Of a DNA stretch of 64,000 bases, positions 4,171-44,014 are shown one piece after another. The position numbers were made by a program, and so were the translations under genes. Source of the DNA: Chitinophagaceae bacterium C216 (GTDB taxonomy: Bacteria; Bacteroidota; Bacteroidia; Chitinophagales; Chitinophagaceae); NCBI GenBank assembly GCA_028485475.2, contig CP144143.1, forward strand, positions 620,001-684,000, given 5' to 3'. The notes beneath the pieces were generated by a model. That model searched no databases. It was given only the letters and a program-made list of their open reading frames with translations, and was not told the DNA's origin. Each line of letters starts with the position of its first letter. Position 1 is the stretch's first letter.

Positions 4171-4273
4171 TTACATCTTTTGGTAAAAACTTTTTTATTG
4201 TAAGTAATATTTATTCACAGCGTTTAACTGTATCGTTATTGTTGAAATCTCTTCACTTTTTATATACGCACAT

Positions 4274-4302
4274 AAAAGCCCGGGTGTAACCGGGCTTTTA
4301 AT
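4274..4302 (-). terminator. Intrinsic terminator after the M28 peptidase gene
   Basis: Ten-base stem AAAAGCCCGG / CCGGGCTTTT with a 6-base loop. It lies 24 bases past the leftward stop at 4326 and is symmetric enough to work in both directions. Confidence 0.8.
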
Positions 4303-4325
4303 AATATGCTTTTTAAAAGGATTCG

Positions 4326-5858: not shown

Positions 5859-5932
5859 ATATTTAAAATTATAATGTAAATGTAGAAAAAACGCCCAACC
5901 AATTGTTACCGTTCATCAATAATTATAGCCCA

Positions 5933-7054
5933 TTACCGCTGTTGCGCTCTAAACCAACGTTCAGGAATTTCATCTCTACTCGCCATTAAATAATCCTTAT
6001 AACTGCAGGGTATATAGTTTTTGTTAGGAAGCTGCATCCACCATCTTCCTGTTTTCTTGCTTTGCAGAAAAGAGGTTTCAATTTCAGAAAATGCAATTTG
6101 AAACTCGTTGAAATTATCCAAGTCGCTGATATCGGCCTCTTTGCTTCGACGATGTCGCCCATCTATAATATACCATAACATGTGGGCAATTTGCATTGCG
6201 GTAAGTTCCTCCCTGTCCTGTTGCGGATTGTATCCATAAATACCGATAGACTGCATATTACTACTCATTCCGGCATACTGCATTAGCTTGCAGGCTTCTT
6301 CACCGTTAAAGCCATTGGGTGTAAGCAGGTTGGCTGGCGCATAAGCATTAGCAATCGCATTGATATCAAATGAAAAAATATTGCTGCTACGAATCGCCGG
6401 TTCTACTTCATCCATATCTTCCTTCACATGTCCTACCCGATAAAAATCAAATTTCAGTTTGTCCAGCGTTTGCAACATACCGGGATGAACCAGATAGCTT
6501 TGAAAACCGATATGGTTATAATGTTTCACATAGTTAGGCTCTGAGGTAAACATCTCCATCAAAAAATTATCATTTTTGAATGGAGACTCCATATCCAGAT
6601 CAATTAAGGCATCAACACCTGTTACTTCTACCAGCTGTTCGGCGCTCTTACAGGCATTGTATTGCGAAAGGGTTAGATCGTGCGAGCCGCCCAATATAAT
6701 CACTGTTTTACCCAGAGCAGTGAGATCGCTAATGACCATTTGTAGGGCCACAAGCGTATCGTTGTAAGAAGCTCCTTGTTGAATATTACCAATATCGACT
6801 AGTTTTATTTTTTCATGCCAATAAAACAACTGATAAAATTTTTTTCGGATCATATCTGGAGCCTGTGAAACCGAACCAATGATACCGCCTCCGCGTTGTT
6901 CTCCACAACCCACAATTATAAGTTCGGCTTGTTCCACATCGGGAAACGTTTCGGTATATATATTAATGGTATCTCCCAGCTGTCCGGGCTTGTAACGCTC
7001 ATCGCCGGTAATTTCCAGTATGTTTACCGGTACTAAAAAATCCTGAATTGACAT
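5933..7054 (-). CDS. Arginase/agmatinase-family protein with altered metal site
   Basis: The 373-residue protein has the ureohydrolase fold landmarks: IIVGCGEQRGGGIIG (46-60), LGGSHDLTLSQY (121-132), VDALIDLDME (147-156) and FSFDINAIANAYAP (227-240). The binuclear manganese site of true members needs GG.HD, DAHxDxR and SFDxDxxDP. Here His125, Asp148, Asp152 and Asp230 are kept, but the His of DAHxD is Leu150 and the second Asp of DxD is Asn232. Ordinary arginase or formiminoglutamase activity is therefore doubtful. Such divergent members are widespread in Bacteroidota, so this looks like a conserved subfamily, not decay. No histidine-degradation genes are adjacent. Family sure, function open. 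Confidence 0.82.
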   Translation of the reverse strand: MSIQDFLVPVNILEITGDERYKPGQLGDTINIYTETFPDVEQAELIIVGCGEQRGGGIIGSVSQAPDMIRKKFYQLFYWHEKIKLVDIGNIQQGASYNDTLVALQMVISDLTALGKTVIILGGSHDLTLSQYNACKSAEQLVEVTGVDALIDLDMESPFKNDNFLMEMFTSEPNYVKHYNHIGFQSYLVHPGMLQTLDKLKFDFYRVGHVKEDMDEVEPAIRSSNIFSFDINAIANAYAPANLLTPNGFNGEEACKLMQYAGMSSNMQSIGIYGYNPQQDREELTAMQIAHMLWYIIDGRHRRSKEADISDLDNFNEFQIAFSEIETSFLQSKKTGRWWMQLPNKNYIPCSYKDYLMASRDEIPERWFRAQQR

Positions 7055-7304
7055 GTGTGCAAGATAGCTTTAATTTAAAATAAATAACGGATATTCTGTT
7101 GCACAACACATTACACTACCTTGCAGAAACAGAAGACACCGTTATATAAATCATTTTGCATTAGTGATGTAATGACTCTTTTATAAAATTAAACAATCTT
7201 CCAAACCCTTCTCAATGCAGTGATATAATTTCAATATCTGCCGCTAATTACCGCCTACATACAAATAATTACTTATTTTGCAGCGCACAAAAATTCATCA
7301 CTAC

Positions 7305-8060
7305 ATGAAACTTCTTGAAAACAAAGTAGCCATCGTAACCGGTGCAGCCCGCGGAATTGGCGAAGCCATTGCCGTAAAATTTGCAGAACAGGGCGCAAAT
7401 GTGGCCTTTACTTATGTAAGCGATAGCAGTGCAGAGCGTGCAGCGGCCCTTGAAGAAAAACTGAAAGCACTTAACGTAAAAGCCAAAGCCTATAAAAGCA
7501 ATGCGGGCAATTTTGAGCAGTGTGAAAGTTTGGTTGCTGATGTTTTAAGTGAATTCGGACAAATAGATATTTGCGTTAATAATGCCGGTATCTCTCGCGA
7601 TAATCTCTTGCTTCGGATGAGCCCGGAACAATGGGAAGAAGTATTAAATACCAACCTGAACAGCGTTTTCTACATGACCAAGCAGGTTCTAAAACCCATG
7701 ATGAAAGCCAGAAGCGGCAGCATCATTAACATGAGCTCTGTAATTGGGGTAATGGGAAATGCCGGTCAAGCTAGCTATGCGGCAAGTAAAGCAGGTATTA
7801 TTGGTTTTACCAAAAGCGTGGCGAAAGAATTGGGAAGCCGGAATATTCGTTGTAATGCCATCGCTCCCGGATTTATAGAAACCGATATGACCAGCTATCT
7901 GAATGAAAATTCCGGGGCAGAAAAATATTTAGCAGACATTCCTCTTAACAGATTTGGAAAACCTGAGGACATTGCCAATCTGGCGCTGTTCTTAGCTTCG
8001 GACTTGAGTAGTTATATCACGGGTCAGACGATTAGCGCCTGTGGCGGATTAAATATTTAG
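7305..8060 (+). CDS. fabG: 3-oxoacyl-[acyl-carrier-protein] reductase FabG
   Basis: A short-chain dehydrogenase of 251 residues from the ATG at 7305 (MKLLENKVAI); a TTG at 7278 would add 9 residues and lies in promoter-like sequence. It shows the TGxxxGIG cofactor loop (TGAARGIG), NNAG (CVNNAGISRD), the catalytic Ser in SSVIGVMGNAGQ, YAASK with the Tyr/Lys pair, and the PGFIETDMT and C-terminal SSYITGQTISACGGLNI blocks typical of FabG. It reduces 3-oxoacyl-ACP with NADPH in fatty-acid elongation in the cytoplasm. It stands alone, with a weak hairpin at its stop, so another SDR role cannot be fully excluded, but the C-terminus argues for FabG. Confidence 0.88.
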   Translation: MKLLENKVAIVTGAARGIGEAIAVKFAEQGANVAFTYVSDSSAERAAALEEKLKALNVKAKAYKSNAGNFEQCESLVADVLSEFGQIDICVNNAGISRDNLLLRMSPEQWEEVLNTNLNSVFYMTKQVLKPMMKARSGSIINMSSVIGVMGNAGQASYAASKAGIIGFTKSVAKELGSRNIRCNAIAPGFIETDMTSYLNENSGAEKYLADIPLNRFGKPEDIANLALFLASDLSSYITGQTISACGGLNI

Positions 8061-8084
8061 GGCAGTCTTTCTGGCTGCCCTTTT
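8060..8084 (+). terminator. Short hairpin at the fabG stop
   Basis: GGGCAG / CTGCCC stem with a 9-base loop and only four T, directly after the stop codon. A weak intrinsic terminator or attenuator. Confidence 0.5.
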
Positions 8085-8106
8085 GCCAGAAACTCGAATC
8101 AAATTA

Positions 8107-8667
8107 ATGAAATTTCAAAAACGCTTACTACTTCCGTTATTTGTTTTAGTTCTATACAACGCAGCAGGTCAAACAGTATATGATACTCATCTTCAGGCCG
8201 CACAGAGATCTGGTATACCACTTATACAGAACAATTCTCAGCTAAACGCTCTTGTAAGTAAAAAAAAGCTGGTTAAAGTAGGTGTGCATCGTGGCTATAC
8301 TATTGCAAGACTTACACATAGCAAACCTTACCTTACCCCTCGCTCCTATAAAGTTTTGAAAGACCTCGGCAATACTTTTTATACAAGAAGCAAAAAGAAA
8401 ACTTTTACAGTTACATCGGTTACGCGTACATTATATGATCAGAAACGATTATCGCGTATAAATACTAATGCTGTTACTACCAAACCCAGCTCCCATAATT
8501 ACGGCTGTTCTTTTGATATTTCTTATATAAGATTCAATAATCGTAAAGCTCCCAATACGCGATTGGAAAAATTGTTGGAAACCATTCTGACCGAATATCA
8601 AAAACAGGGCAAGCTGTACTTTATTAAAGAATACCGCGAAAAATGTTTTCATATTACTGTTAGATAG
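8107..8667 (+). CDS. DUF5715 family protein, M15-like peptidoglycan peptidase fold
   Basis: The protein has 186 residues from the ATG at 8107; the upstream TTG at 8083 falls in the fabG hairpin. It has a signal peptide (KFQKRLLLPLFVLVLYNAAGQ). The stretch PSSHNYGCSFDIS carries the H-x-x-G-x-x-x-D zinc arrangement of M15/VanY-type peptidases, and CFHITV near the end offers the last His. SVTRTLYDQKRLSRIN resembles the SGxR substrate region. It is likely a periplasmic peptidoglycan DD- or LD-carboxypeptidase-like enzyme. The family name DUF5715 is from memory. It starts 46 bases after fabG and may be read through the weak hairpin. Confidence 0.7.
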   Translation: MKFQKRLLLPLFVLVLYNAAGQTVYDTHLQAAQRSGIPLIQNNSQLNALVSKKKLVKVGVHRGYTIARLTHSKPYLTPRSYKVLKDLGNTFYTRSKKKTFTVTSVTRTLYDQKRLSRINTNAVTTKPSSHNYGCSFDISYIRFNNRKAPNTRLEKLLETILTEYQKQGKLYFIKEYREKCFHITVR

Positions 8668-8757
8668 CAATTATTATTCATATTTGCGAAATTAGATTCA
8701 TATTTATCCGTTATCTTTAAAAACAATATTCATCACAACTCATTTTTTTCCGCGCTC

Positions 8758-9999
8758 ATGTTGTATTTGCGGCACTTAGAATTTTTAAAGCTGGTTTTCA
8801 TACACGGCCTTACGGCTTTTGGTGGGCCCCAAGCGCATCTGGCAATGATGATGAAAACTTTTGTAAAGCAAAGGCCGTATGTTACTGAGCAGGAATTGAT
8901 GGAGTATACTGCTTTTTGCCAGCTGTTACCCGGAGCTTCTTCTACTCAAACGCTTACATTAATTGGGTTTAAACGAGGAGGTCCAGTACTGGCTATATTA
9001 ACCTTGCTTGTATGGATTTTACCTGCATGCACTATCATGTGTGCGCTTTCCTTTTTTGTAGAGTATATCGAAGGTTCATCTCGGCACACAGATATTTTTA
9101 AATTTATAGTACCCATGGCGGCAGGCTTTCTAATCTTTGCCTGTATCAGCTCTTTACCTTACTCCGTAAAAAATTTGATAACCGGAGTAATTGCTGTAAT
9201 TACCGCCATTGCTACATTTCTATTCTTTGGCAAACCCTATATAGTTCCTATTCTTATTATTGCCAGTGGAATTGTCACCAATCTGAGTCGCAAGCGTATA
9301 CCGCAAACAGACACCAAACCCGGAAAAATCAGATGGTGGAACATCTGGCTCTTTGCGATTATTTTCATTATTGCGGGTGTGCTTAGTGAAACTGCGCGTA
9401 AAAACGACTGGACTTATCGCAAGCCTATCAATTTATTCGAACATACGTATCGTATGGGCAGTCTGGTTTTCGGTGGCGGAAATGTGTTGATGCCGATAAT
9501 GTATGAACAGTTTAGCGTAAGACCTGAAGCAGTGAAAAACAAAAACCCTAATGTTATACAAATAGGAAAAAAGGAAATGCTTACCGGTATCGGTATTGTG
9601 CGTGCCGTACCGGGTCCGGTTTTTTCCATTGCTTCCTATTCGGGCGGACTAGCCCTGAAAGACATGGGACCATCTATGCAAATTCTGGGAGGAGTGATTG
9701 GAATGATTGGCATTTTTCTTCCTAGTGCATTGCTGGTGCTTTTCTTTTTTCCTATTTGGAATATGTTGAAGAAATATGCCGTAATTTATCGATCTCTCGA
9801 AGGTATTAATGCTGCCGTACTAGGTATTATGATTGGTTCTACTTTTTACATTCTGAAAGATGTGATATTGTTTGACGGAAGCACTTTGGGATTTTGGAAT
9901 ATTGCCATCATTCTCGGTTCGGCCTTTGCGCTGATATTTACTCGCATTCCACCACCCATTCTGGTAGCAGTAAGTATTGCATTGGGTTATTTTCTATAA
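8758..9999 (+). CDS. chrA: Chromate transporter family protein ChrA (two-domain)
   Basis: The 413-residue polytopic membrane protein has two homologous halves, the long-chain ChrA (CHR) architecture. The first half has [18 protein letters not shown] and [20 protein letters not shown]; the second has [15 protein letters not shown] and [19 protein letters not shown]. Known members export chromate across the inner membrane, but many Bacteroidota copies have no link to chromate resistance and the physiological anion may differ. It is flanked by fabG/DUF5715 on the same strand and overlaps the 3' end of the convergent nadD by 13 bases. No regulator is adjacent. Confidence 0.85.
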
Positions 10000-10559
10000 T
10001 AGCCGCCCTTTTCAATTTCTTCAATAACGTTGTCGGGTAAAAGGTATTTTACTGATTTTCTTTCCTTGATTAAACGCCTAATATGCGTAGCAGAAATTTC
10101 AAGTAATGGAGCCTCCAATACTTTTACTTTTGATGTAGAATCGACAGAAATATCAAAACATGGTCGATTATATACTAATATTTCATAATTTTCTAATATA
10201 TAAGAGGCGTTTTTCCACCGATGTATATTTTGGAAGCTGTCCCCACCCATAATGATAGCAAACTCGTGCTGTGGATATTTTTCAGTGAGATGTGCTAGAG
10301 TAATTGCTGTGTAAGAAGGTCGCGGTAAAGTAAATTCAATATCACTGGCCTTCATTCGAATATCGCCCTCAATAGCTAGATTGACTAAATGATAGCGGTG
10401 ATTTTCGTTGAGCAGAGATGCAGATTCTTTGAATGGGTTTTGAGGAGATACTATAAACCATACACGTTCTACCCATTCTTCATTCAAGATATGATTTGCA
10501 ATGATGAGATGGCCGTGATGGATAGGATTAAAGGAACCAAAATAAAGTCCGATTTTCAT
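9987..10559 (-). CDS. nadD: Nicotinate-nucleotide adenylyltransferase NadD
   Basis: The 190-residue nucleotidyltransferase has [20 protein letters not shown], holding the HxGH ATP site, and the distal motif [15 protein letters not shown] (the SxTxxR motif), which binds the phosphates. It adenylates nicotinate mononucleotide to deamido-NAD in the cytoplasm. The length fits the family (about 190-215). nadA, an earlier enzyme of the same pathway, is in this window at 19 kb. It lies 8 bases downstream of feoA and is therefore probably co-transcribed with it. Its 3' end overlaps chrA tail to tail. Confidence 0.92.
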
Positions 10560-10567
10560 TAGGGGTA

Positions 10568-10798
10568 TTATTCGCCAGTATGTACAACAATATGTTTTGC
10601 TTCATCTGTTCTAAGGCTTAGCAGATAGCCCGCCACAGAAACAGACATAGGGTCATTGAACAATGCCTTTTGTACTACTTCAATTTTTTCGCCCGGCAAG
10701 CACCCCATTTCCATTAACTTCAAAAAAATTTCCTCGGTAGTAAATTTCACGATAGTTGCTATCTGGCCCGGTTCTAAATCAGACAATAATAATTCCAT
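10568..10798 (-). CDS. feoA: FeoA domain protein
   Basis: A 76-residue SH3-like FeoA protein: LSDLEPGQIATIVKF, LKLMEMGCLPGEKIEVV (the conserved L-x-x-M-G-x-x-P-G) and PMSVSVAGYLLSLRTDEAKHIVV. FeoA is the small cytoplasmic partner of the ferrous-iron permease FeoB. Here it is paired with nadD and not with feoB, which is encoded alone at 45.4-47.6 kb. A TAGCTTTG -7 box ends 5 bases before the ATG, so the mRNA is nearly leaderless. The family is clear; function with the distant FeoB is inferred. Confidence 0.88.
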   Translation of the reverse strand: MELLLSDLEPGQIATIVKFTTEEIFLKLMEMGCLPGEKIEVVQKALFNDPMSVSVAGYLLSLRTDEAKHIVVHTGE

Positions 10799-10802
10799 AA
10801 TG

Positions 10803-10810
10803 CAAAGCTA
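10803..10810 (-). promoter_or_regulatory. -7 promoter box of feoA-nadD
   Basis: TAGCTTTG on the minus strand matches TAnnTTTG and lies 4 bases upstream of the feoA ATG. Confidence 0.6.
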
Positions 10811-10848
10811 AGCATTGTTGTTTGTGTTTTGTTTACGAATTTTGGAAC

Positions 10849-11286
10849 ATGTCGTTAAAAAATTTTTCTATTCGATTTTACTTTCAGAAGCCTATTACTT
10901 TAAAAGAAAGAAGGCGACTAAAAGATTTTTTGATACAGCAATTACGCAAGGTTGGAAAAACCGGAGCTGAAATAAATTATGTGTTTTGCTCAGATGAAGA
11001 ACTTCTTTCCATAAATCAAACACATCTAAATCACGATTACTATACTGATATTATAACGTTCGATCTTTCAGAAAAAAATTCTCCAAATCTGGTATCTGAT
11101 ATTTATATCAGCACAGACAGGGTAAAAGACAATGCGAAAGCTTTTAATGTGCCGCAAAACACAGAGTTATTGCGTGTAATTTTTCATGGCGTGTTACATC
11201 TCATAGGTTATAAGGATAAAACCTTAGAAGATCAAGCTCAAATGAGATCGATGGAGGAACAATGGTTAAAAACCTACCTTTCTTAA
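10849..11286 (+). CDS. ybeY: Endoribonuclease YbeY (16S rRNA maturation, quality control)
   Basis: The protein has 145 residues from the ATG at 10849 (MSLKNFSIRF); a longer reading from 10822 overlaps the divergent promoter region. Family landmarks are VGKTGAEINYVFCSDEELLSIN, the TDIITFDLSE block and ISTDRVKDNA, then the metal motif HGVLHLIGYKDK. YbeY is a zinc RNase needed for 16S rRNA 3' end processing and ribosome quality control. Two His of the classic H-x3-H-x5-H motif are present, but the third is Lys/Asp (GYKDK in place of GYDH). I recall this form as normal in Bacteroidota, where the Asp may serve as ligand. It lies just upstream of the parS cluster and mnmG. Confidence 0.9.
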   Translation: MSLKNFSIRFYFQKPITLKERRRLKDFLIQQLRKVGKTGAEINYVFCSDEELLSINQTHLNHDYYTDIITFDLSEKNSPNLVSDIYISTDRVKDNAKAFNVPQNTELLRVIFHGVLHLIGYKDKTLEDQAQMRSMEEQWLKTYLS

Positions 11287-11311
11287 TCTTTCAAAATACA
11301 TTTTTACTTTA

Positions 11312-11327
11312 CGTTCCACGTGAAACA
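11312..11327. other. parS: parS centromere site 1
   Basis: CGTTCCACGTGAAACA matches the ParB binding consensus TGTTnCACGTGAAACA in 15 of 16 positions. It is the first of three such sites in under 100 bases between ybeY and mnmG. Confidence 0.85.
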
Positions 11328-11351
11328 CTTTGTTTTTCAAACTACTTATTA

Positions 11352-11367
11352 TGTTCCACGTGGAACC
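11352..11367. other. parS: parS centromere site 2
   Basis: TGTTCCACGTGGAACC is a parS variant with a perfect 14-base palindromic core (GTTCCACGTGGAAC). Its centre lies 40 bases from that of site 1. Confidence 0.82.
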
Positions 11368-11392
11368 TTAAACTCTCTTCAAAATTTCGTTC

Positions 11393-11408
11393 TGTTTCAC
11401 GTGAAACA
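11393..11408. other. parS: parS centromere site 3
   Basis: TGTTTCACGTGAAACA is the exact parS consensus and a perfect 16-base palindrome. Its centre lies 41 bases from that of site 2, and it ends 62 bases before the mnmG promoter box. Confidence 0.92.
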
Positions 11409-11470
11409 TAGTTTATCGTATTAATATTGTCATTTCACACATAGGAGGCTGCAGTCGTTTTAATAATTGT

Positions 11471-11478
11471 TACTTTTG
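11471..11478 (+). promoter_or_regulatory. -7 promoter box of mnmG
   Basis: TACTTTTG matches TAnnTTTG. Only 7 bases separate it from the ATG at 11486, so the transcript should be leaderless or nearly so. Confidence 0.65.
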
Positions 11479-11485
11479 CACCCTT

Positions 11486-13354
11486 ATGTTTCCAGAATAC
11501 GATGTTATAGTAGTTGGTGCCGGACATGCCGGTTGTGAAGCAGCAGCGGCTGCTGCCAATATGGGCTCCAAGACCCTATTGGTAACCATGAATATGCAAA
11601 CTATCGCCCAAATGAGCTGTAATCCTGCAATGGGAGGTATTGCAAAAGGTCAGATTATCCGTGAAATTGATGCAATGGGCGGCTACTCAGGGATTGTGAC
11701 GGACCATACTATGATTCAGTTTAGAATGCTGAATCGATCTAAAGGCCCGGCTATGTGGAGCCCTCGTGCACAAAGCGATAGAATGCTTTTTTCTGCAAAA
11801 TGGAGGGAAATGCTGGAACAAACACCTAACCTGGATTTTTATCAGGATATGGTGAAAGGTTTATTAGTAAAAGATAAGCGTGTATGCGGTGTTATTACCG
11901 GATTGGGGCATGAAATAAAAGGAAAAGCAATTGTTTTAACCAATGGAACCTTCCTGAATGGTGTAATTCATATAGGGGAAAAGCAGTTTGGCGGTGGTCG
12001 TGTGGCTGAAAAAGCAGCTAGTGGTATTACGGAGCAGCTAGTGGAACTAGGATTTGAAAGTGATAGGTTAAAGACTGGAACACCTCCTAGAATTGATGGT
12101 CGCAGTTTGGATTATTCCAAAATGGAAATCCAAAACGGAGATGAAGAAATAATAGGCTTTTCATTTACTGATACTCCTAAACTTAACCCCAAACAACAAC
12201 GTTGCTGCTGGATTACTTACACCAATACAAAGGTGCATGATATCTTAAAAACCGGATTCGACAGGAGCCCGATGTTTACCGGTAGAATAGATGGTGTAGG
12301 TCCCCGATATTGTCCCAGCATCGAGGATAAGATTAATCGCTTTGCAGAGAGGGATCGTCACCAATTATTTGTAGAGCCCGAAGGATGGAATACTGTAGAA
12401 ATATATGTGAATGGATTTTCTACATCTTTACCAGAAGAAGTACAATATGAAGCCCTCCGGAATGTACCGGGTTTTGAAAATGCAAGAATGTTTCGTCCGG
12501 GTTATGCAATCGAATACGACTACTTCCCACCTACACAGCTTAAACATACACTTGAAACGAAGTTGATAGACAACTTATTCTTTGCTGGTCAAATCAACGG
12601 TACAACCGGGTATGAAGAAGCGGCATGCCAAGGCCTAATGGCCGGTATTAATGCGCATCTTAAAGTACAGGAAAAAGATGGGTTAGTCTTACAAAGAAGT
12701 GAAGCATACATTGGCGTATTGATAGATGACCTTATCAGCAAGGGTACTGAAGAGCCTTATAGAATGTTTACTTCCCGTGCTGAATATCGTACCCTGCTCA
12801 GACAAGATAATGCAGATGCACGCTTAACTCCCATCAGTTACAAATTAGGCTTGGCCAGTGAAGAGAGAATGGAAAGAGTGACCCAAAAGAACGAAAACGT
12901 GGCTAACATTATTGCTATTCTAAAAAGCACAGTTTTCAAACCCGAGGATATCAATCCATTCCTAAAACACATCAACTCTTCTGAAATTGTAGAAAAGCAA
13001 AAAGCTGATAAAATTCTTCTCCGACCTAGTGTGGAATTGGAAGATTTGGCACAGGCTGTGCCCGCTCTTGGAGAAGCTCTTAAAAAATACAATAAAGAAG
13101 AAATTGAGCAAGCTTCAATACAAGTAAAATATCAGACTTACATCGAAAAAGAAAGAGAAATTGTGGCACGTATGAGCGAGATGGAAAATCTGGTCATTCC
13201 TGAAAACTTTGATTATACAAAAATCAGCTCTTTAGGCAACGAAGCACGCGAAAAATTAAGCAAAGTAAAGCCGCGTACTTTAGGTCAGGCTACCCGTATC
13301 TCTGGCATTAACCCAAGTGATATACAAATTTTAATGGTGTACATGGGTAGATAA
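11486..13354 (+). CDS. mnmG: tRNA uridine-34 modification enzyme MnmG (GidA)
   Basis: The 622-residue FAD protein starts at the dinucleotide-binding motif VIVVGAGHAGCEAA. It has the family blocks AQMSCNPAMGGIAKG (with Cys), MIQFRMLNRSKGPAMWSPRAQ, LKTGTPPRI, CCWITYTN and the C-terminal TLGQATRISGINPSDI. With MnmE it adds the carboxymethylaminomethyl group to U34 of certain tRNAs, using methylene-THF, FAD and NADH. The length is typical (about 620-630). The old name gidA (glucose-inhibited division) comes from its position next to oriC in many bacteria, which fits the parS sites just upstream and the origin candidate 7 kb downstream. It is monocistronic with its own promoter and terminator. Confidence 0.97.
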   Translation: MFPEYDVIVVGAGHAGCEAAAAAANMGSKTLLVTMNMQTIAQMSCNPAMGGIAKGQIIREIDAMGGYSGIVTDHTMIQFRMLNRSKGPAMWSPRAQSDRMLFSAKWREMLEQTPNLDFYQDMVKGLLVKDKRVCGVITGLGHEIKGKAIVLTNGTFLNGVIHIGEKQFGGGRVAEKAASGITEQLVELGFESDRLKTGTPPRIDGRSLDYSKMEIQNGDEEIIGFSFTDTPKLNPKQQRCCWITYTNTKVHDILKTGFDRSPMFTGRIDGVGPRYCPSIEDKINRFAERDRHQLFVEPEGWNTVEIYVNGFSTSLPEEVQYEALRNVPGFENARMFRPGYAIEYDYFPPTQLKHTLETKLIDNLFFAGQINGTTGYEEAACQGLMAGINAHLKVQEKDGLVLQRSEAYIGVLIDDLISKGTEEPYRMFTSRAEYRTLLRQDNADARLTPISYKLGLASEERMERVTQKNENVANIIAILKSTVFKPEDINPFLKHINSSEIVEKQKADKILLRPSVELEDLAQAVPALGEALKKYNKEEIEQASIQVKYQTYIEKEREIVARMSEMENLVIPENFDYTKISSLGNEAREKLSKVKPRTLGQATRISGINPSDIQILMVYMGR

Positions 13355-13377
13355 GCCCCTTCGTTCTCTATTACTAA

Positions 13378-13424
13378 TACCTAGAACATACTATATTTTC
13401 ATTGCTGATGTTCTAGGTATTTTT
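13378..13424 (+). terminator. Intrinsic terminator after mnmG
   Basis: Perfect 12-base stem TACCTAGAACAT / ATGTTCTAGGTA with an 18-base loop, then TTTTT. The remaining sequence to the tRNA (13425-13600) is very AT-rich and holds no gene I can support. Confidence 0.75.
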
Positions 13425-13603
13425 ATCCCTTCTTATAAAGAATAGTATTATATTAAATTATAATAATATATTAATTATAAATAATTTCTCTTCGCCCCTT
13501 CCTGAATTTTCCTATTGCTAACGTAGTATGATAGGATAATCAATAAAGCTAAACGGGATTTTTTATCGGCCTTTCTAAGAATAAAACGAATAAATAAATA
13601 AGA

Positions 13604-13635
13604 AAATAAAAAACCCTTGCCGATTAGCAAGGGTT
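13604..13635 (-). terminator. Intrinsic terminator after tRNA-Phe
   Basis: Nine-base stem AACCCTTGC / GCAAGGGTT with a 6-base loop, followed on the minus strand by a run of T. It begins two bases past the tRNA 3' end. Confidence 0.85.
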
Positions 13636-13636
13636 G

Positions 13637-13709
13637 TGGTGTGGGCCGGAATCGAACCGGCGACACAAGGATTTTCAGTCCTTTGCTCTACCAACTGAGC
13701 TACCGCACC
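13637..13709 (-). tRNA. tRNA-Phe (anticodon GAA)
   Basis: A 73-nt cloverleaf on the minus strand. The acceptor 5' arm is GGTGCGG, the D-arm GCTC...GAGC, the anticodon stem AAGGA/TCCTT with loop CTGAAAA (anticodon GAA at 13674-13676), and the T-arm GCCGG/CCGGC with loop TTCGATT; the discriminator is A73. CCA is not encoded. The 3' acceptor arm reads CCACACC, so six of seven pairs form and position 5-68 is a C-A mismatch, which is unusual. It stands alone between mnmG and recQ with its own terminator. Confidence 0.95.
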
Positions 13710-13783
13710 GACCGTTTTAACGGGGCAGCAAAAATAAAGGTTTTTAATTAAAAATCTATTTTTTATGAAAATTTCTTGCAGAA

Positions 13784-16048
13784 TTACATACCATACTCAC
13801 TAAGGAATTTGATACGCATAATTTTTAACTGCTCCCAGTTGAAATCGAATTCTGCCAATTCCTTTTGTGCCACTTCAAGAGAGGAGGTTTCGCAAGTTTT
13901 GAAGTACTCCATAATTTCATACTGCTCATTCTCATCAAGCATCTCATCGATGGCATAACCGATATTGAGTTTAGTACCGCTGGCAGCTATGGTTTCCATT
14001 TCTTCTAGCAGTTCAGCAGTTTCCCACCCTCTATTCTTGGCAATTGTTTCCAAAGGAATTTTCTTATCGGTTTGTTGAATGATATACACTTTATCACCGC
14101 TTTTATTCACAACACTCTTCATCACGAAATCGTCGGGTTTTTCTATGTTGTTTTCTTCAACATACCGAGCAATCAACTCCACAAAGGGCTTTCCGTAACG
14201 ACGTGCTTTAGCACCACTAACACCCTGGCATTTTTCCAGCTCCTGTAAAGTTGTAGGATACAGTGTTGCCATATCTTGCAGAGATGTTTCCAAGAAAATA
14301 ACCCAGGGAACGAGTCCAATTTTTTTAGCTTCTTTCTGCCGCAGTTCTTTTAACATTTCAAAAAGACGCTCATCTACAACCGCTCCATCTGCCACATTAT
14401 CCATACCTTCATCATCATCTCCCATGGCCTCTTCAAAATTATTGTTCAGGACAATGCTGAAAGATTTTGGTTTTTTGAGGAACGCTGCTCCCTTATCGGT
14501 TATCTTCAATACACCATATTCTTCAATATCCTTGCGCAGCAATCCTTCTAAAATCATTTGTCGGAAAAGCGAGTTCCAAAAATGTGCATCTTTTTCCTTA
14601 CCGATACCAAAACTGGAAAGTCCTTCATGGCGGAACATCTTAACCTGAGGTGTTAGCTTGCCGGTGATAATAGTGACCATATAATCTGTAGCAAACTTTT
14701 CACCCAGCTCCTTGATAGCCTTTAATACAATGACAGCATCTTCCTTGGCCTCTATCTTCTCCTTTGGATTTTTACAATTATCACAGTTTCCACAGTTTTC
14801 TTGCGGAAACTCTTCGCCAAAGTAACTGAGTATTACTTTACGTCTACACACGCCGCTCTCGGCATATGCCACGATTTCATTTATTAATTGTGCACCTACT
14901 TCTCTTTCACTTAACGGCTTATCCCGCATAAGGTGCTCTAGCTTACTTACGTCTTTATGTGAGTAATAAAGAATACATTTTCCTTCTAATCCATCGCGTC
15001 CTGCCCTACCGGTTTCTTGATAATAGTTCTCGATCGACTTTGGAATATTATAATGTATCACAAACCGTACATCGGGCTTATCGATTCCCATACCAAAAGC
15101 GATAGTGGCCACAATCACCTGGACATCCTCACTTAGAAAATCGTCCTGTCTTTTAGCCCGCAATTTGGCATCCAACCCCGCATGATAAGCAACCGCCTTG
15201 ATACCATTTGCTTGTAAAATATCGGCTAGTTCCTCAGTAGTTTTGCGATTAAGGGTATAAATAATACCACTTTTATTTTTCATTCCCTTTATAAAGCGCA
15301 CAATGCTTTCGTGTGTTTGAGATTTTTTGATTTTGGGAATGATTTCATAATAAAGATTTTCCCTGTTGAAAGAAGAGATAAATATGTTGGGTTCTCTAAG
15401 ATCGAGATTCTTAATAATATCACTCTGAACCTTAGGTGTAGCAGTAGCGGTGAGAGCGATAACCGGCAAATTAGGATTAATCTTATCCATCATTTCGCGC
15501 AGTCTGCGATATTCCGGCCTAAAATCGTGTCCCCACTCACTTATACAATGCGCTTCATCTACCGCAAAGAAAGAAATGTTCAGATCGCTGAAGAATGAAA
15601 GATTTTCGGGTTTTGTTAGTGTTTCCGGAGCCACATATAAAAGTTTGGTTTTTCCGGAAATCAAATCGTCATGAACAGCCTTTATTTCCTTTTTGGTTAA
15701 AGTCGAATTTAAAAAGTGTGCAATCTCGTCATTGCTATTATATCCTCTTACCAGATCCACTTGGTTTTTCATTAAGGCTATGAGAGGTGATACGATAATG
15801 GCTACGCCGTCCGATATCATAGCCGGAAGCTGATAACACAGGCTTTTACCTCCTCCTGTTGGCATAATCACAAAAGTGTCTTTACCAGACAGTAAAGATT
15901 CTATTATTTCCTGCTGTTTTCCTTTAAATTGTTTAAAACCAAAGTATTTCTGCAGCGCTTCGTGCAAATCAACCTTTGTCTTCTTCGCAGCCTGCCCAGG
16001 CTCTTTTTTGGCTTTTTTTGGGGCAGCTTTTCCACTTTTGACACCCAT
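13784..16048 (-). CDS. recQ: ATP-dependent DNA helicase RecQ
   Basis: The 754-residue superfamily 2 helicase starts with a Lys/Ala-rich tail (residues 1-30). The helicase core follows: the P-loop PTGGGKSLCYQLPA, VDEAHCISEWGHDFRPEY (DEAH and the aromatic-rich loop), ALTATATP, and motif VI YQETGRAGRDG. The zinc-binding RQC part has CRRKVILSYFGE and CGNCDNC. A winged helix and an HRDC domain (LPWVIF..., CQGVSGAKARRYGKPF) follow, and the C-terminal extension after residue 640 resembles a helix-turn-helix (KIPLETIAKNRGWETAELL). RecQ unwinds DNA in recombination and replication-fork repair. The length is greater than E. coli RecQ (about 610) because of both extensions, a form common in Bacteroidota. 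Monocistronic. Confidence 0.95.
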   Translation of the reverse strand: MGVKSGKAAPKKAKKEPGQAAKKTKVDLHEALQKYFGFKQFKGKQQEIIESLLSGKDTFVIMPTGGGKSLCYQLPAMISDGVAIIVSPLIALMKNQVDLVRGYNSNDEIAHFLNSTLTKKEIKAVHDDLISGKTKLLYVAPETLTKPENLSFFSDLNISFFAVDEAHCISEWGHDFRPEYRRLREMMDKINPNLPVIALTATATPKVQSDIIKNLDLREPNIFISSFNRENLYYEIIPKIKKSQTHESIVRFIKGMKNKSGIIYTLNRKTTEELADILQANGIKAVAYHAGLDAKLRAKRQDDFLSEDVQVIVATIAFGMGIDKPDVRFVIHYNIPKSIENYYQETGRAGRDGLEGKCILYYSHKDVSKLEHLMRDKPLSEREVGAQLINEIVAYAESGVCRRKVILSYFGEEFPQENCGNCDNCKNPKEKIEAKEDAVIVLKAIKELGEKFATDYMVTIITGKLTPQVKMFRHEGLSSFGIGKEKDAHFWNSLFRQMILEGLLRKDIEEYGVLKITDKGAAFLKKPKSFSIVLNNNFEEAMGDDDEGMDNVADGAVVDERLFEMLKELRQKEAKKIGLVPWVIFLETSLQDMATLYPTTLQELEKCQGVSGAKARRYGKPFVELIARYVEENNIEKPDDFVMKSVVNKSGDKVYIIQQTDKKIPLETIAKNRGWETAELLEEMETIAASGTKLNIGYAIDEMLDENEQYEIMEYFKTCETSSLEVAQKELAEFDFNWEQLKIMRIKFLSEYGM

Positions 16049-19064: not shown

Positions 19065-20075
19065 TTACAATCCGGCTTGCTTACTTATTTCTAGCATTCT
19101 GTCAATAGGCTTTTTAGCTGCCAGACGCAGTTCTTCATCCATTGTAATTTCGGGAAGCTCATATTTCATACACAGGTATATTTTTTCCAATGTATTGCGC
19201 TTCATGTGTGGACAATCGTTGCATGCACAGCCATTATCCGGAGGAGCAGGTATAAATTTCTTATGCGGGCTGGCTTTTTCCATCTGATGCAGAATACCGG
19301 TTTCGGTAGCTACGATAAATTCATCTGCATCACTTTCCATAGTGTACTTCAATAATCCTGTTGTGGAACCTATAAAATCAGCCAGCTTCAACACTTCCTC
19401 TTCACACTCGGGGTGGGCAATAAATTTAGCATTCGGATGCTGTTGTTTCAGCTTTACGATTTTTTCAAGACTAAATATTTCATGCACAATACATGCACCG
19501 TTCCACAACAACATGTTGCGACCTGTAACTTTATTGATGTAGGCTCCTAAATTCTTATCCGGAGCGAAAATTATTTTTTGGTCTTTTGGAAAACTATCCA
19601 CAATAATGCGGGCATTACTACTGGTAACAATTACATCGCTCAGCGCTTTAATACCGGCGCTGCAGTTGATGTAACTTACCACAACATGATCGGGATGTTG
19701 TTCCTTGAACAACTTAAACATGGGAGGAGGACAGCTATCACTCAGTGAACAACCGGCTTTAAAATCGGGAATAACAACTTTCTTAGTTGGATTGAGAATT
19801 TTTGCCGTTTCGGCCATGAAATGCACACCCGCAAAAACAATCATATCGGCATTTGTCTTCTCGGCCTCCTGAGCCAATCCTAGACTATCGCCAATGTAGT
19901 CAGCTATATCTTGAATATCAGCTTCCTGGTAATAATGCGCTAGAATAACTGCATTTTTTTCCTTCTTTAATTTGCTAATTTCTTCAAATAAATCCAGCGT
20001 TGGATCTACCTCAATATCCAAAAATCCCTTTACGTCCAATTCCTGCTGTGCTGTTTCCAAGATAGCTGCTTCCAT
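19065..20075 (-). CDS. nadA: Quinolinate synthase NadA
   Basis: The 336-residue iron-sulfur enzyme has the family blocks [89 protein letters not shown] and the C-terminal [16 protein letters not shown] with the last cluster cysteine. It condenses iminoaspartate with dihydroxyacetone phosphate to quinolinate, the start of de novo NAD synthesis. No nadB or nadC lies beside it. Its start faces the gene-free origin candidate region on the left border. Confidence 0.97.
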
Positions 20076-20145
20076 GATAAAAATTTAAATTCGATATGCA
20101 ATGATACAATGCAATGGCAAATTTTCGCAAACAAATTTTTGCGAT

Positions 20146-20228
20146 TGCTATTATAACACTATTAATAACTATTTTATTATTTTTTAAAAAAAGACCTATT
20201 ACTATTACGGCTGTGAATTAGTGGATAA
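20146..20228 (-). other. Basal unwinding element: tandem DnaA boxes, DnaA-trios, AT tract
   Basis: On the minus strand, reading from 20228, TTATCCACT runs into TAATTCACA, then the spacer GCCG, then TAA TAG TAA TAG (20207 to 20196), then a tract of almost pure A/T down to about 20146. DnaA boxes, a short GC-rich spacer, DnaA-trios and a duplex-unwinding tract in this order form the known core of many bacterial origins. Confidence 0.68.
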
Positions 20229-20507
20229 CTTCCATTTTAGTTCTATTACAAATTTAAAAGTTAATTGTTTTCCACACAATTTGACATCTAATTAACATGA
20301 AAGGTATTAGATCTTGCTTATTTTGGAGGGTTTTCCACAATTATGTGGATATCATTAATGTAAATAAAAAATTTTTTGCTTCACTACGTATTGCTGTGGA
20401 TATCCGATAGTATAATTTTAAAGTAACTCACCGACTAAAAGGGCTTCCACAATATTTTAAAATTTATAACCCAACAATTATGTTTCATATAAACGTTTCA
20501 CGCAGGG

Positions 20508-20516
20508 TTATCCACA
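20508..20516 (+). other. Perfect DnaA box
   Basis: TTATCCACA is the exact consensus R1-type box within the origin candidate. Confidence 0.75.
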
Positions 20517-20667
20517 TAAATCCATTGCTATTCACATATCTTTGGGGAGAAATTTTTGGTTAATGGGCTATTTTTCACAATAATGAAATCCTAAAAACAC
20601 AAATTAGGAACGACACAATATATATCTGTTACCCTGTTCTGTAAAAAACATCTTAATTACATAAGTT

Positions 20668-22830
20668 ATGATTTACGTAAAAAGAATATTATCAGTGTTC
20701 ATCTGCGTATTACTCTTTTCAGTAGCAAAGGCAGATGAAGGTATGTGGTTGCCTCAGCTTCTAGAAGCACTTAATGCTAAAAGAATGAAAGAGCTGGGTA
20801 TGAAAATGAGTCCTAGTGATATTTATAGTATTAACAAGGCAAGTTTGAAAGATGCCGTAGTGAGCTTTGGAGGATTTTGTACCGGAGAAGTTATATCGGA
20901 CAAAGGATTATTGTTGACAAACCATCACTGTGGATTCAGTGCTATTCAGAGTCATTCTACTATTGATAAAAATTTTATAAGAGACGGTTTTTGGGCAAGA
21001 GATTATGCCGAAGAATTACCCAACCCGAACTTGTTTGTAACATTTATTGTAAGAATAGATGATGTAACTGCTCAGGTACTAACAAATGTATCTGAATCGA
21101 TGGCTGAAAACGAACGTCAGTCGCAAATAGCTAGAAATGTTCGTGGGTTATTGAATAATGTTAAAAAAGAAACTTATCAGGATGCATATGTGCGTCCTTT
21201 CTTTGAAGGAAATAAATTTTACCTGTTTGTTACCGAAACCTATCATGATGTAAGATTGGTAGGTGCACCTCCTTCCTCTATTGGGAACTTTGGAAAAGAT
21301 ACAGACAACTGGATGTGGCCGCGCCATACGGGCGATTTCAGTCTATTCAGAATCTATGCTGGAAAAGATAATAAGCCGGCAAAATATAGTCCGGAAAATG
21401 TTCCTTATAAGCCAAAAAAATTTTTATCTATTTCGCTTAGTGGTGTAAAGGAAGGTGATTTTACAATGGTGTTTGGTTTTCCGGGTCGCACCTCCGAGTA
21501 TTTGCCTAGTGAAGCTGTAGAACAAATTATGACAGTGTATGATCCGGCTAAAATTTCAATAAGAGATAAAGCCTTATCTATTCTTGATAAATACATGCGT
21601 AGTGATGGGGCAATAAAGATTCAATATGCATCGAAATATGCCGGAATCAGTAATGCTTGGAAGAAATGGCAAGGCGAAGTATTGGGGCTTACTACTACTA
21701 ATGCAGTTCAGAAAAAATTGAACTACGAAAAAGAATTTACAGCATTGCTGGAGAAAAATCCTACATTAAAAACTAAATATGGTAAAGTATTACCCGAGCT
21801 GATTCAAAAGCATAAGGAGATAAAACCTTATGCACTAGCGCGCGATTATTATTTAGAAACTACTAGTAAAGTAGAATTATTTACAGTTGTCAACAAAATA
21901 CGTGCATTAAAATCGCGAAAAGACAAACAGGGTTATGCAGAAGCTTTGGCCGCTGACATTAGCTGGTTTGAAAAATTTTGGAAAGATTTCAATATTAATG
22001 TAGATAAGGAGCTCTTTGCTGCTATGATGCAACTTTACATAGAAAAGCAAGAACCGAGCTATGTAGCTACTTATGCCAAAGAGCAATATCATCAATATAA
22101 TGATTATGCTAAATGGGCTGACGATGTTTATAGCAAAAGCGTATTTGCCGATAAGCAAAAAGTAATGGATGCTTTAACAAATCAGCCCGAACGATTGTAT
22201 GATGCATTAAATACAGATGTTGCGGCCAAATTGCTTATTGAAATCGCAAATATGTATGATAATGATGTTGCGTTAAAGGTTAATAAAATTCAGGCTGATA
22301 TCAATAAGTTACAGCGCTTGTATATGCAAGCACAGATGGATGCATTTACTCATAAAACATTTTATCCCGATGCTAACAGTACTTTAAGAGTGGCTTTTGG
22401 TAATGTAAGTGGATATAACTCCCCGTCGGGTAAGAAATATGATTATTATACTTATTTAGATGGTGTGATGGAAAAATATAAGCCCGGAGATTATGAATTT
22501 GATGTACCCCAAAAGCTGATAGAACTGCATAAAAAGAAGGATTATGGCATATATGGCGTTAATGGTAAAATGCCAGTATGTTTCATTGCTTCCAATCATA
22601 CTACAGGAGGAAATAGTGGTAGTCCCGCACTTGATGCTTATGGAAATTTGATAGGACTAAACTTTGACCGCGTGTGGGAAGGTACGATGAGTGATATTAA
22701 TTATGATCCTTCCATCTGCCGAAATATTATGGTAGATATTCGTTATGTACTTTTCATTATAGATAAATTTGCCGGTGCCGATCATTTAATAAAGGAAATG
22801 AAGCTGGTATATCCTACTGCCAAAAAATAA
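20668..22830 (+). CDS. S46 family dipeptidyl-peptidase, DPP11-like (acidic P1 specificity predicted)
   Basis: The 720-residue protein has a signal peptide (1-22). The S46 chymotrypsin-fold catalytic parts are CTGEVISDKGLLLTNHHCGF (71-90, catalytic His near 86) and GGNSGSP (647-653, Ser650), with an Asp between. These enzymes remove dipeptides from oligopeptides in the periplasm of Bacteroidota that feed on peptides. In Porphyromonas gingivalis DPP11, Arg673, 18 residues after Ser655, selects Asp/Glu at P1, while DPP7 has Gly there. Here residue 668, also 18 after Ser650, is Arg (FDRVWE), so acidic specificity is predicted. The gene borders the origin candidate and ends in a clear terminator. 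Confidence 0.93.
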   Translation: MIYVKRILSVFICVLLFSVAKADEGMWLPQLLEALNAKRMKELGMKMSPSDIYSINKASLKDAVVSFGGFCTGEVISDKGLLLTNHHCGFSAIQSHSTIDKNFIRDGFWARDYAEELPNPNLFVTFIVRIDDVTAQVLTNVSESMAENERQSQIARNVRGLLNNVKKETYQDAYVRPFFEGNKFYLFVTETYHDVRLVGAPPSSIGNFGKDTDNWMWPRHTGDFSLFRIYAGKDNKPAKYSPENVPYKPKKFLSISLSGVKEGDFTMVFGFPGRTSEYLPSEAVEQIMTVYDPAKISIRDKALSILDKYMRSDGAIKIQYASKYAGISNAWKKWQGEVLGLTTTNAVQKKLNYEKEFTALLEKNPTLKTKYGKVLPELIQKHKEIKPYALARDYYLETTSKVELFTVVNKIRALKSRKDKQGYAEALAADISWFEKFWKDFNINVDKELFAAMMQLYIEKQEPSYVATYAKEQYHQYNDYAKWADDVYSKSVFADKQKVMDALTNQPERLYDALNTDVAAKLLIEIANMYDNDVALKVNKIQADINKLQRLYMQAQMDAFTHKTFYPDANSTLRVAFGNVSGYNSPSGKKYDYYTYLDGVMEKYKPGDYEFDVPQKLIELHKKKDYGIYGVNGKMPVCFIASNHTTGGNSGSPALDAYGNLIGLNFDRVWEGTMSDINYDPSICRNIMVDIRYVLFIIDKFAGADHLIKEMKLVYPTAKK

Positions 22831-23280: not shown

Positions 23281-23988
23281 TTAGAGTAAATCGTTGGGAT
23301 TAGGTACCAGCTTCAATATCTTGTGTAAGTTCTGCTGATAGTGTTTTCTATCCAGCTTGTAGTAGAAGGCTCCCTTTTTAGAATTACTTTTATCCTTTTC
23401 TTTTAGTTTAATAAGAAGGTTGGTAGAGAGCATCTTTCTGCTGAAGTTTCCTTTATCGAAGACAGTGTTAAACACGTCCTCGAAAAGTGTTTGTAACATA
23501 GGGATGGTGAATTTTTCGGGTAATAACTCAAATAAAATAGAATGTGATGCAGCTTTATATTGCAGCCTATTTTGAGCCATCATCACCATCTCATTATGGT
23601 CAAATATGAGAGAAGGAAATTCTTTTATAGGGAACCAATGTGCTTTAAAGTTATCGTGTAATGAGTCTTTGTATTTATTAATATCGATCAGTGCGAAATA
23701 ACCGATAGATATGGTACGCTGTACCGGGTCGCGATCCGGACGCGTAAAGGTGTGAAACTGCTCCAGATAAATACCATCCAGACCGGTAAGTTTTTTCAAG
23801 ACTCTTTTGGCAGCATCTTCAGCACTTTCATCTTTATTCACAAAACCACCCATCAGACTCCATTTACCTTTTTCGGGTTGAAATCCTCTTTTTATTAGTA
23901 GTATTTTCAATCGGTTACCGTCAAATCCGAAAACGATACAATCCACGGCAACCTTCATTTTAGTGCCTACGGAATATTTTTTTCTCAT
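23281..23988 (-). CDS. NUDIX-fold transcriptional regulator (NrtR/AraR-like) with degenerate NUDIX box
   Basis: The 235-residue protein has an N-terminal NUDIX fold (residues 8-140, VAVDCIVFGFDGNRLKILLIK and GKWSLMGGFV) and a C-terminal winged-helix region (about 155-230, TIPMLQTLFEDVFNTVFDKGNFSRKM). This is the architecture of NrtR and of the Bacteroides arabinose regulator AraR. The hydrolase signature Gx5Ex7REUxEExGU reads GFVNKDESAEDAAKRVLKKLTGL: all three glutamates of REUxEE are Val, Lys and Leu, so it should bind but not hydrolyse its ligand. Ligand and targets are unknown; no sugar or NAD operon adjoins it. rho lies upstream on the same strand behind a terminator. Confidence 0.82.
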   Translation of the reverse strand: MRKKYSVGTKMKVAVDCIVFGFDGNRLKILLIKRGFQPEKGKWSLMGGFVNKDESAEDAAKRVLKKLTGLDGIYLEQFHTFTRPDRDPVQRTISIGYFALIDINKYKDSLHDNFKAHWFPIKEFPSLIFDHNEMVMMAQNRLQYKAASHSILFELLPEKFTIPMLQTLFEDVFNTVFDKGNFSRKMLSTNLLIKLKEKDKSNSKKGAFYYKLDRKHYQQNLHKILKLVPNPNDLL

Positions 23989-41960: not shown

Positions 41961-42530
41961 TTAAGACTTTTTCTGTTGTTGTTTGTATTCTTTTTCGATA
42001 TCCTGCGCTTTTTCAAAGTCGAGAATAACGCCATTGATACAATAGCGCAATCCGGTTGGGGGCGGACCGTCGTCAAATACATGTCCTAAATGCGCTTGGC
42101 AGCGACCGCATTGTACTTCGGTACGAATCATACCATGCGAGCGGTCTTCCAGATAGATTACACTGTTTTTGCTAATCGGCTCATAAAAGCTAGGCCAGCC
42201 ACAGCCGCTATCAAATTTAGTATCGCTTTTAAATAAGGGATTGCCGCAGGCGGCACAATAATAAGTACCTACCTCTTTAAAATTCTCAAATTTGCTGGTC
42301 CAAGGACGTTCCGTACCTTTTTGTCGAGCTATATAATACACCTCCGGTGATAGAATCTTCTGCCATTCTTCATTACTCAGTTTTACCGGGGTAGTATCGG
42401 TACGGGAGTAAACCGGATTTTTTGATTTATCCATGATGGTTGTGTCTTTAGGATGAGAAGATTTCGTTTGCGATTGGCATTGATGAAAAAAACAACCTAT
42501 AAGAATCAATATAATCGCAGACGATTTCAT
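41961..42530 (-). CDS. msrB: Peptide-methionine (R)-S-oxide reductase MsrB, lipoprotein
   Basis: The 189-residue protein has a lipoprotein signal (lipobox L-I-G-C, Cys13). The MsrB fold follows, with zinc cysteines 92, 95, 141 and 144 (YCAACG, CGRC), [12 protein letters not shown], the [21 protein letters not shown] block and catalytic Cys164. It reduces methionine-R-sulfoxide in oxidised envelope proteins. The usual RYCINS reads RYCING here. Its stop lies 5 bases from that of the convergent PepSY gene. No msrA is adjacent. Confidence 0.93.
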
Positions 42531-42702
42531 ATTTATTAAACAAATCCGAATTGAAAAAAGTTTTGCATTAAATCTTATTATTAGAAATTGTATAGAAAAA
42601 ACCTATTTATATAATAAAATTACAATAAAAGGTCCATCAACTAATGAAATTATCCGATGATACAGTATATTTGTTCACTTACATCAAATTAAAATTGCGT
42701 AA

Positions 42703-43776: not shown

Positions 43777-44014
43777 CTAATATGGTTTTTTACGATTTAC
43801 AATGGCTAATCTTTTCCCAATGACAAGCAAAAATAGCCATATACTACATATCCCTAATTCAGGTGATTGTAAGGTTTATTTGATGTATTAGCTATACTTT
43901 TATATTGTATTAAAGCAAATGTAAAGACCTTAATTTAATATAATAAGGTTTATATAAAAATTTTCTGACTAAACACCGTTCCTGTTGGAAATAAAAATAA
44001 TTAAAATAAATAAC

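Follow-up and report, generated by a model that had tools for sequence, protein, structure and literature searches.

A probable DnaA-type replication origin flanked by nadA and an S46 peptidase gene, far from dnaA, and its signature in the Chitinophagales

In many bacteria dnaA adjoins oriC. The locus considered here raises the question of whether a chromosome begins its replication in a 592-bp intergenic gap that has nadA on one side and an S46 peptidase gene on the other. The gap lies at 20076-20667 of the window, the whole 64,000-bp stretch of DNA that was analysed (bases 620,001-684,000 of a single contig of 3,342,126 bases; positions above 64,000, and those given in kb or Mb, are positions of the contig). 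A first-pass annotation of the letters had proposed a probable chromosomal replication origin at this place, and the proposal is now supported by a GC-skew minimum, an excess of DnaA boxes, parS sites, conservation and a DnaA-trio element. We put the probability that the gap is oriC of the 3.34-Mb chromosome, working by the DnaA mechanism proposed below, at about 0.96. It is almost certainly a normal DnaA-type origin, and notable mainly for the distance of dnaA.

The gap is, as had been claimed, AT-rich (27.5% G+C) and the longest interval without ORFs of at least 100 aa in the window's ORF list. Pfam bears out the identification of both flanking genes; the closest named records to this NadA include Niabella species (85-87% identity). 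Exactly four 9-mers in the gap fit TTWTNCACA (at 20268, 20331, 20508 and 20571), one of them, at 20508, a perfect TTATCCACA, again as annotated. Two further statements hold in part. DnaA boxes do exist on the reverse strand, but each of these is mismatched and all four exact ones are on the forward strand. The count of at least nine boxes stands if one mismatch to TTWTNCACA is allowed (12 boxes, some overlapping), but falls to seven when the reference is TTATCCACA, matched exactly or with one mismatch. That the density is beyond chance is clear from dinucleotide shuffles of the gap: four exact boxes were reached by none of 5000 (maximum 3), 12 by none of 1000 (mean 3.25, maximum 9) and seven by none of 5000 (maximum 4). 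One mark of a DnaA-type oriC, an intergenic box cluster beyond chance, is thus present. A denser cluster elsewhere would have counted against the proposal; in the 861 kb scanned (26% of the genome) the gap is the densest place, with four exact boxes in 600 bp, and the next separate one, at 791,970, has three. Genome-wide, TTWTNCACA occurs 472 times versus 358 for its reversed control, and the perfect TTATCCACA 46 times versus 48, which is no excess.

A second mark, a cumulative GC skew that reaches its minimum at the site, had been predicted by the first-pass annotation. Over 303 contiguous kb (501,001-804,000) this minimum is base 640,660, which is 20660 in the window, at the edge of the gap; the same base is the minimum over 600-704 kb. 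For the entire chromosome the minimum rests on samples (twenty 20-kb stretches and three from the window), and these agree: skew is negative in 6/6 stretches before 640 kb, positive in 11/11 between 640 kb and 2.02 Mb and negative in 6/6 from 2.17 Mb onward. The sign changes in the sampled 20-kb stretches only at the gap and in the 2.02-2.29 Mb region. Finer samples, with small values of mixed sign at 2.13-2.28 Mb, put the second change, the sampled skew maximum, at about 2.26-2.29 Mb, close to the gap's antipode at 2.31 Mb. Four relatives (G004, G008, G020 and G034) were sampled in 20 stretches of 20 kb each, the sampling steps of G034 assuming a slightly short length. Their best skew boundaries fall 0, 1, 2 and 1 of 20 steps, respectively, from the nadA gap. 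In all four, mean skew is above zero on the clockwise side of that gap and below zero on the counter-clockwise side, with 9, 9, 8 and 8 of 10 clockwise stretches positive and 7, 10, 7 and 10 of 10 counter-clockwise stretches negative; the skew of G020, whose boundary is two steps off, is weak.

Nearness to parS is a usual, not a defining, feature of oriC. The palindrome TGTTNCACGTGNAACA, which we take to be the parS consensus, occurs with at most one mismatch at four places in the genome, and three of these are clustered 9 kb from the gap, between ybeY and mnmG/gidA (Table 1). The remark that the neighbours of the gap are not classic origin markers is therefore right for nadA and the S46 peptidase gene, but ybeY, parS and mnmG/gidA lie only 7-10 kb leftward. 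(The fourth palindrome, with one mismatch, is at 2,282,327-2,282,342, in locus L033, near the skew maximum; it is probably a chance occurrence.) A parS match is present in 55 of 59 relatives; the four that lack one include two of the same genus, G002 and G007. The reversed control of the pattern matches many genomes, up to five times in one. Among the genomes listed with both parS and nadA (at least 20), 18 of 20 have the two on one contig, 2.8-34.3 kb apart, and in 17 of those 18 the distance, among the matches listed, is within 11.2 kb. In G021 and G048 parS appears, among the matches listed, only on contigs other than that of nadA.

Table 1. Features of the proposed origin and its surroundings (window positions). 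Row counts refer to 19 aligned gaps, mismatches are to TTWTNCACA unless stated otherwise, and box counts are inflated by a permitted 3-column slide (see text).
Feature	Position	Strand	Basis
ybeY, left of parS cluster	10822-11286	+	TIGR00043
parS, one mismatch to TGTTNCACGTGNAACA	11312-11327		genome pattern search
parS, one mismatch	11352-11367		genome pattern search
parS, no mismatch, TGTTTCACGTGAAACA	11393-11408		genome pattern search
mnmG/gidA, right of parS cluster	11486-13354	+	TIGR00136
nadA, quinolinate synthase	19065-20075	-	left flank, transcription away from gap; PF02445, NF006878
putative oriC, whole intergenic gap	20076-20667		box excess, skew minimum 20660, conservation in 19 gaps
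candidate AT-rich DNA unwinding element	20148-20195		low stability; AT-rich in 19 aligned rows
DnaA-trio array 5'-TAA TAG TAA TAG-3'	20196-20207	-	sequence; trios as defined in PMC8287927 and PMC6669920 (passages)
GC-rich spacer GCCG, separating boxes from trios	20208-20211	-	sequence
DnaA box TAATTCACA, trio-proximal	20212-20220	-	<=1 mismatch in 16/19 rows
DnaA box TTATCCACT, trio-distal	20220-20228	-	<=1 mismatch in 18/19 rows
DnaA box TTTTCCACA	20268-20276	+	exact 8/19, <=1 mismatch 18/19 rows
DnaA box TTTTCCACA	20331-20339	+	exact 9/19, <=1 mismatch 19/19 rows
DnaA box ATATCCACA, facing 20331 box	20344-20352	-	<=1 mismatch 10/19, <=2 18/19 rows
weak DnaA box ATATCCACA	20395-20403	-	<=1 mismatch 3/19, <=2 19/19 rows
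right conserved block TTTCATATAAACGTTTCAC...TTATCCACA...TATTCACA...TTTGGGGAGAAA	20481-20554	+	densely conserved alignment columns
perfect DnaA box TTATCCACA	20508-20516	+	TTWTNCACA 14/19, <=1 mismatch 19/19 rows
DnaA box CTATTCACA	20528-20536	+	<=1 mismatch in 16/19 rows
degenerate inverted box TTCTCCCCA, closes right cluster	20543-20551	-	<=2 mismatches 19/19, <=1 2/19 rows
box TTTTTCACA, not conserved	20571-20579	+	exact 1/19, <=2 mismatches 2/19 rows
S46 peptidase gene	20668-22830	+	right flank, transcription away from gap; PF10459

Comparison with the same gap in relatives, to which the first-pass annotation had pointed as informative, finds the gap and its box positions conserved. Of 59 relatives, 47 gave a NadA match; 30 nadA loci were fetched, and up to 1.5 kb upstream of nadA was examined in all 30. 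Nineteen rows, from 16 members of the genus and three other genera of the family, were aligned (the remaining 11 loci were left out), each row ending at the next ORF (545-637 bp), except that L045 and L050 were trimmed manually at 620. The blocks that recur in the 19 rows are GCAATGATAC by nadA, an AT-rich stretch, CTATTATTATTA-nnn-TGTGAATTAGTGGATAAC, individual boxes and, on the right, a block that ends in TTTGGGGAnAAA. The counts of conserved boxes allow a slide of three columns, which inflates them: each true box is counted up to seven times and 59 of 1168 position-strand pairs reach 10/19. Among the 30 gaps examined, no exact box occurs within 800 bp upstream of nadA in L052, L058 or L062, and in L061 the exact boxes of that segment are confined to the reverse strand. 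The GCAATGATAC block (20098-20107) adjoins nadA, is identical, as judged by eye, in 15 of the 19 aligned rows, and is perhaps a nadA promoter or leader.

One part of the gap is a tandem box, GC spacer and DnaA-trio array that spans 20196-20228 and is conserved in the 19-row alignment, its TATTA-n-TATTA block being present in 19/19 rows. The minus strand reads TTATCCACT-AATTCACA-GCCG-TAA-TAG-TAA-TAG, followed by A/T-rich DNA; the two boxes share base 20220, and the better one, TTATCCACT, is 12 bp from the first trio. DnaA boxes, spacer and DnaA-trios stand in this order in the B. subtilis origin as described in passages of PMC8287927 and PMC6669920. According to passages of PMC8287927, the layout is predicted in 1755 of 2070 bacterial origins, spacer length peaks at 10-13 bp, and the basal unwinding system (BUS) is recognized by a DnaA box with at most two mismatches, a spacer of at most 16 bp and at least three trios with a central A. 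The element described here has one mismatch in TTATCCACT, a 12-bp spacer, which falls inside the published peak, and four trios. With its tandem boxes, short GC-rich spacer, DnaA-trios and AT-rich stretch, the nadA gap resembles B. subtilis incC/BUS as set out in those two sources; it differs in its place, with nadA and an S46 peptidase gene as neighbours instead of dnaA, and in having an extra right-hand box cluster and an inverted degenerate box. By nearest-neighbour energies, only two 60-bp stretches in the window are less stable than 20148-20207; its rank is fifth at 100 bp and fourth at 150 bp, where the AT-rich segments 13367-13516, 42523-42672 and 43865-44014 are less stable. A candidate AT-rich unwinding element beside the boxes, a third mark of a DnaA-type oriC, is thus present, though it is not unique in the window.

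How such an origin would work can be sketched by analogy with B. subtilis and other model origins, which supply the binding by DnaA, the point of opening, the loading of the helicase and the action of ParB; the site, the change of skew, parS, the conservation and the order of the motifs are computed here. DnaA, whose gene is 1.44 Mb distant, would bind the conserved boxes, and the tandem pair at 20212-20228 would guide it on to the trios at 20196-20207. Opening would then be expected in the AT-rich stretch to their left (20148-20195), with further DnaA supplied by the boxes in mid-gap and by the right-hand cluster (20481-20554). Helicase would be loaded next and two forks would depart in both directions, the new origins presumably being segregated by ParB on parS at 11312-11408.

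Clusters of DnaA boxes can also titrate or regulate DnaA, as at datA and DARS. The nadA gap might be a cluster of that kind, or the divergent promoter region of nadA and the S46 peptidase gene, with oriC elsewhere. Two divergent promoters probably do lie in it, the GCAATGATAC block is kept in 15/19 rows, and the excess of boxes extends to the whole window (22 exact TTWTNCACA versus 8.4 expected). Promoters do not, however, predict a chromosome-wide change of skew, and the skew minimum at the edge of the gap, parS 9 kb off, the trio element and the same linkage in relatives combine to make this a very improbable account of the gap. An origin near dnaA, at 2.54 Mb, would be in the usual place for many bacteria; we give it next to no chance, since the 20 kb that hold dnaA (L123) nowhere have three or more exact boxes in 600 bp and have no parS match, and skew contradicts it, being plainly negative there (-0.036 at 2505-2525 kb and -0.073 at 2525-2545 kb). 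The promoter-only gap and the dnaA-proximal origin were both rejected on these grounds.

Another alternative accepts the region and moves the point: the origin would be nearby, for example 9 kb leftward, around parS and mnmG, and the box cluster just a part of it. Cumulative skew hardly moves between 636 and 640 kb (-529 and -530, respectively), and a gidA-adjacent oriC is, in passages of PMC6323995, preferred for some gammaproteobacteria. Yet the strict minimum of skew is at 20660, and there is no exact box from 4220 to 14102, while the nadA gap has four, together with the trio array and conserved boxes. We consider the displaced origin a shade less probable even than the titration or promoter account.

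Of 396 genomes of the order, 59 contain exactly one copy of a degenerate 32-nt pattern of the box-spacer-trio block, at most two mismatches being allowed; the reversed control of the pattern occurs in none. Forty-five of the 59 belong to the window's family, 13 to a family designated f18 and one to another, f4. The pattern was derived from the alignment of the window's own family, so that its presence there is partly circular; the matches in other families are not. A sample of 395 genomes of the class has it in 5 of 14 from the order and in 1 of 381 outside. Since only 59 of the 396 genomes of the order carry the signature, its absence says nothing. NadA is beside it in 28 of 30 loci, the window's own included, the exceptions being L091 and L097.

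Eight of the 14 signature loci outside the window's family were fetched, and neither NadA nor S46 was found in those eight by tblastn. In the seven f18 loci among them (L284-L289 and L291) the gap that contains the signature measures about 0.5-1.45 kb from one ORF of at least 100 aa to the next, and the fetched 3.1-kb segments contain 15, 13, 11, 11, 2, 5 and 7 exact boxes, respectively, a few of which fall inside ORFs. Pfam identifies COX15-CtaA (2/2 tested), SRAP (2/2) and D-Tyr-tRNA deacylase (1/1) as neighbours in f18, and YbeY and AnmK near the f4 match; the remaining neighbours outside the window's family were judged by eye from translations. Sixteen signature genomes were tested for parS: the 13 of f18, the one of f4 and, from the window's family, the two in which NadA does not adjoin the signature. 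In 14 of the 16, parS shares the contig of the signature at a distance of 1.2-30 kb; the exceptions are G412, whose sole match is weak and 130 kb off, and G218. That the signature keeps company with parS but has other neighbours in other families supports its being an origin marker and not a feature of the nadA promoter. The putative f18 origins (seven of 13 fetched) thus share with the nadA gap the signature, a large gap and, in six of seven genomes, parS on the same contig; they differ in having no nadA beside them but, where neighbours were tested, COX15/CtaA together with SRAP or D-Tyr-tRNA deacylase, and 2-15 exact boxes per 3.1 kb. Four of them, L284-L287 (from G283, G350, G406 and G412), combine large gaps and 11-15 exact boxes per 3.1 kb with a neighbouring CtaA gene, identified by Pfam in L287 and by eye in the others, and these gaps are likely to be oriC of another family of the Chitinophagales. 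At the f4 locus (L290, from G058) two parS matches sit where ybeY ends (3'), at a distance of 1.2 kb from the signature, a layout that echoes the ybeY-parS-mnmG order of the window (10822-13354).

The only dnaA is outside the window, so the assertion that this origin is not next to it was correct, and adjacency to dnaA, a common but not a defining feature of oriC, is absent. The single gene, at 2,539,354, encodes 477 aa with N-terminal, ATPase and HTH domains; the 1.44 Mb between it and the gap amount to 86% of the distance to the terminus. An oriC far from dnaA is not novel in itself: it is commonly the case in the Bacteroidetes according to passages of PMC4755523, which cites DoriC. Sixteen genomes carry dnaA and an origin marker on a single contig that makes up at least about 97% of the genome and is assumed to be circular (nine distances computed, seven measured by hand; shorter contigs, and G003 with its completeness of 72%, were set aside). 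As percentages of the half contig, the computed distances include 64 in G004, 56 in G008, 70 in G020, 79 in G034, 50 in G011, 94 in G283, 94 in G350 and 39 in G406; those measured by hand are about 94 in G360, 95 in G338, 47 in G359, 39 in G389, 34 in G385, 29 in G254 and 29 in G030. The notion that dnaA is always close to the terminus was dropped, the distance ranging from about 29% to 95% over the 16 genomes. In G283, G350, G360 and G338 dnaA is about 94-95% of the half contig from the signature, near the presumed terminus.

These distances have a practical side. Among the dnaA places listed, at least five large contigs start at dnaA (G008, G283, G350, G360 and G406), and their base 1 is far from the origin, about 94% of the way toward the terminus in three of the five. 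Taking base 1 as the origin misleads analyses of gene order, dosage and peak-to-trough growth rate. More speculatively, and with the odds rather against it, one and the same 32-nt box-spacer-trio core might mark oriC throughout the Chitinophagales, while the gene neighbours turn over (in one family nadA, in another CtaA with SRAP or dtd) and dnaA stays remote from the core, almost at the terminus in some lineages. Were this so, the initiator gene would be among the last genes to be copied, its dose relative to the origin would drop when initiation speeds up, and these lineages would constitute a natural experiment on whether the position of dnaA matters for the control of initiation.

As to precedent, among the open-licence titles listed we found none on an experimentally tested oriC from the Chitinophagaceae, and no open-licence paper pairing the DnaA-trio with Bacteroidetes or a Chitinophagaceae oriC with GC skew. 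The site, or related ones, may already be in DoriC or in the table of predicted origins of PMC8287927. A close parallel is the oriC predicted for chromosome I of Prevotella intermedia (Ori-Finder/DoriC; passages of PMC4755523), likewise a box cluster at a change of skew with dnaA distant; those passages mention neither trio nor parS, and the likeness lies in the features described. Added here are a conserved arrangement of the parts of the origin and a signature of 32 nt; in a second family the signature also marks gaps that are rich in boxes, mostly linked to parS and flanked by other genes. The origin of what is apparently the chromosome of a Niabella-like member of the Chitinophagaceae is pinned to a named gap, and its boxes, trios and AT-rich stretch offer a minimal origin that can be tested.

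Two minor observations concern the gap and its surroundings. An Rfam snoRNA match at 20572-20647 is sub-threshold (28.5 bits versus a gathering cut-off of 50, E 0.13) and was taken as chance. Genes of NAD metabolism are gathered within 14 kb around the origin: nadD (9987-10559), nadA (19065-20075) and a gene for a Nudix/NrtR-like regulator (23281-23988).
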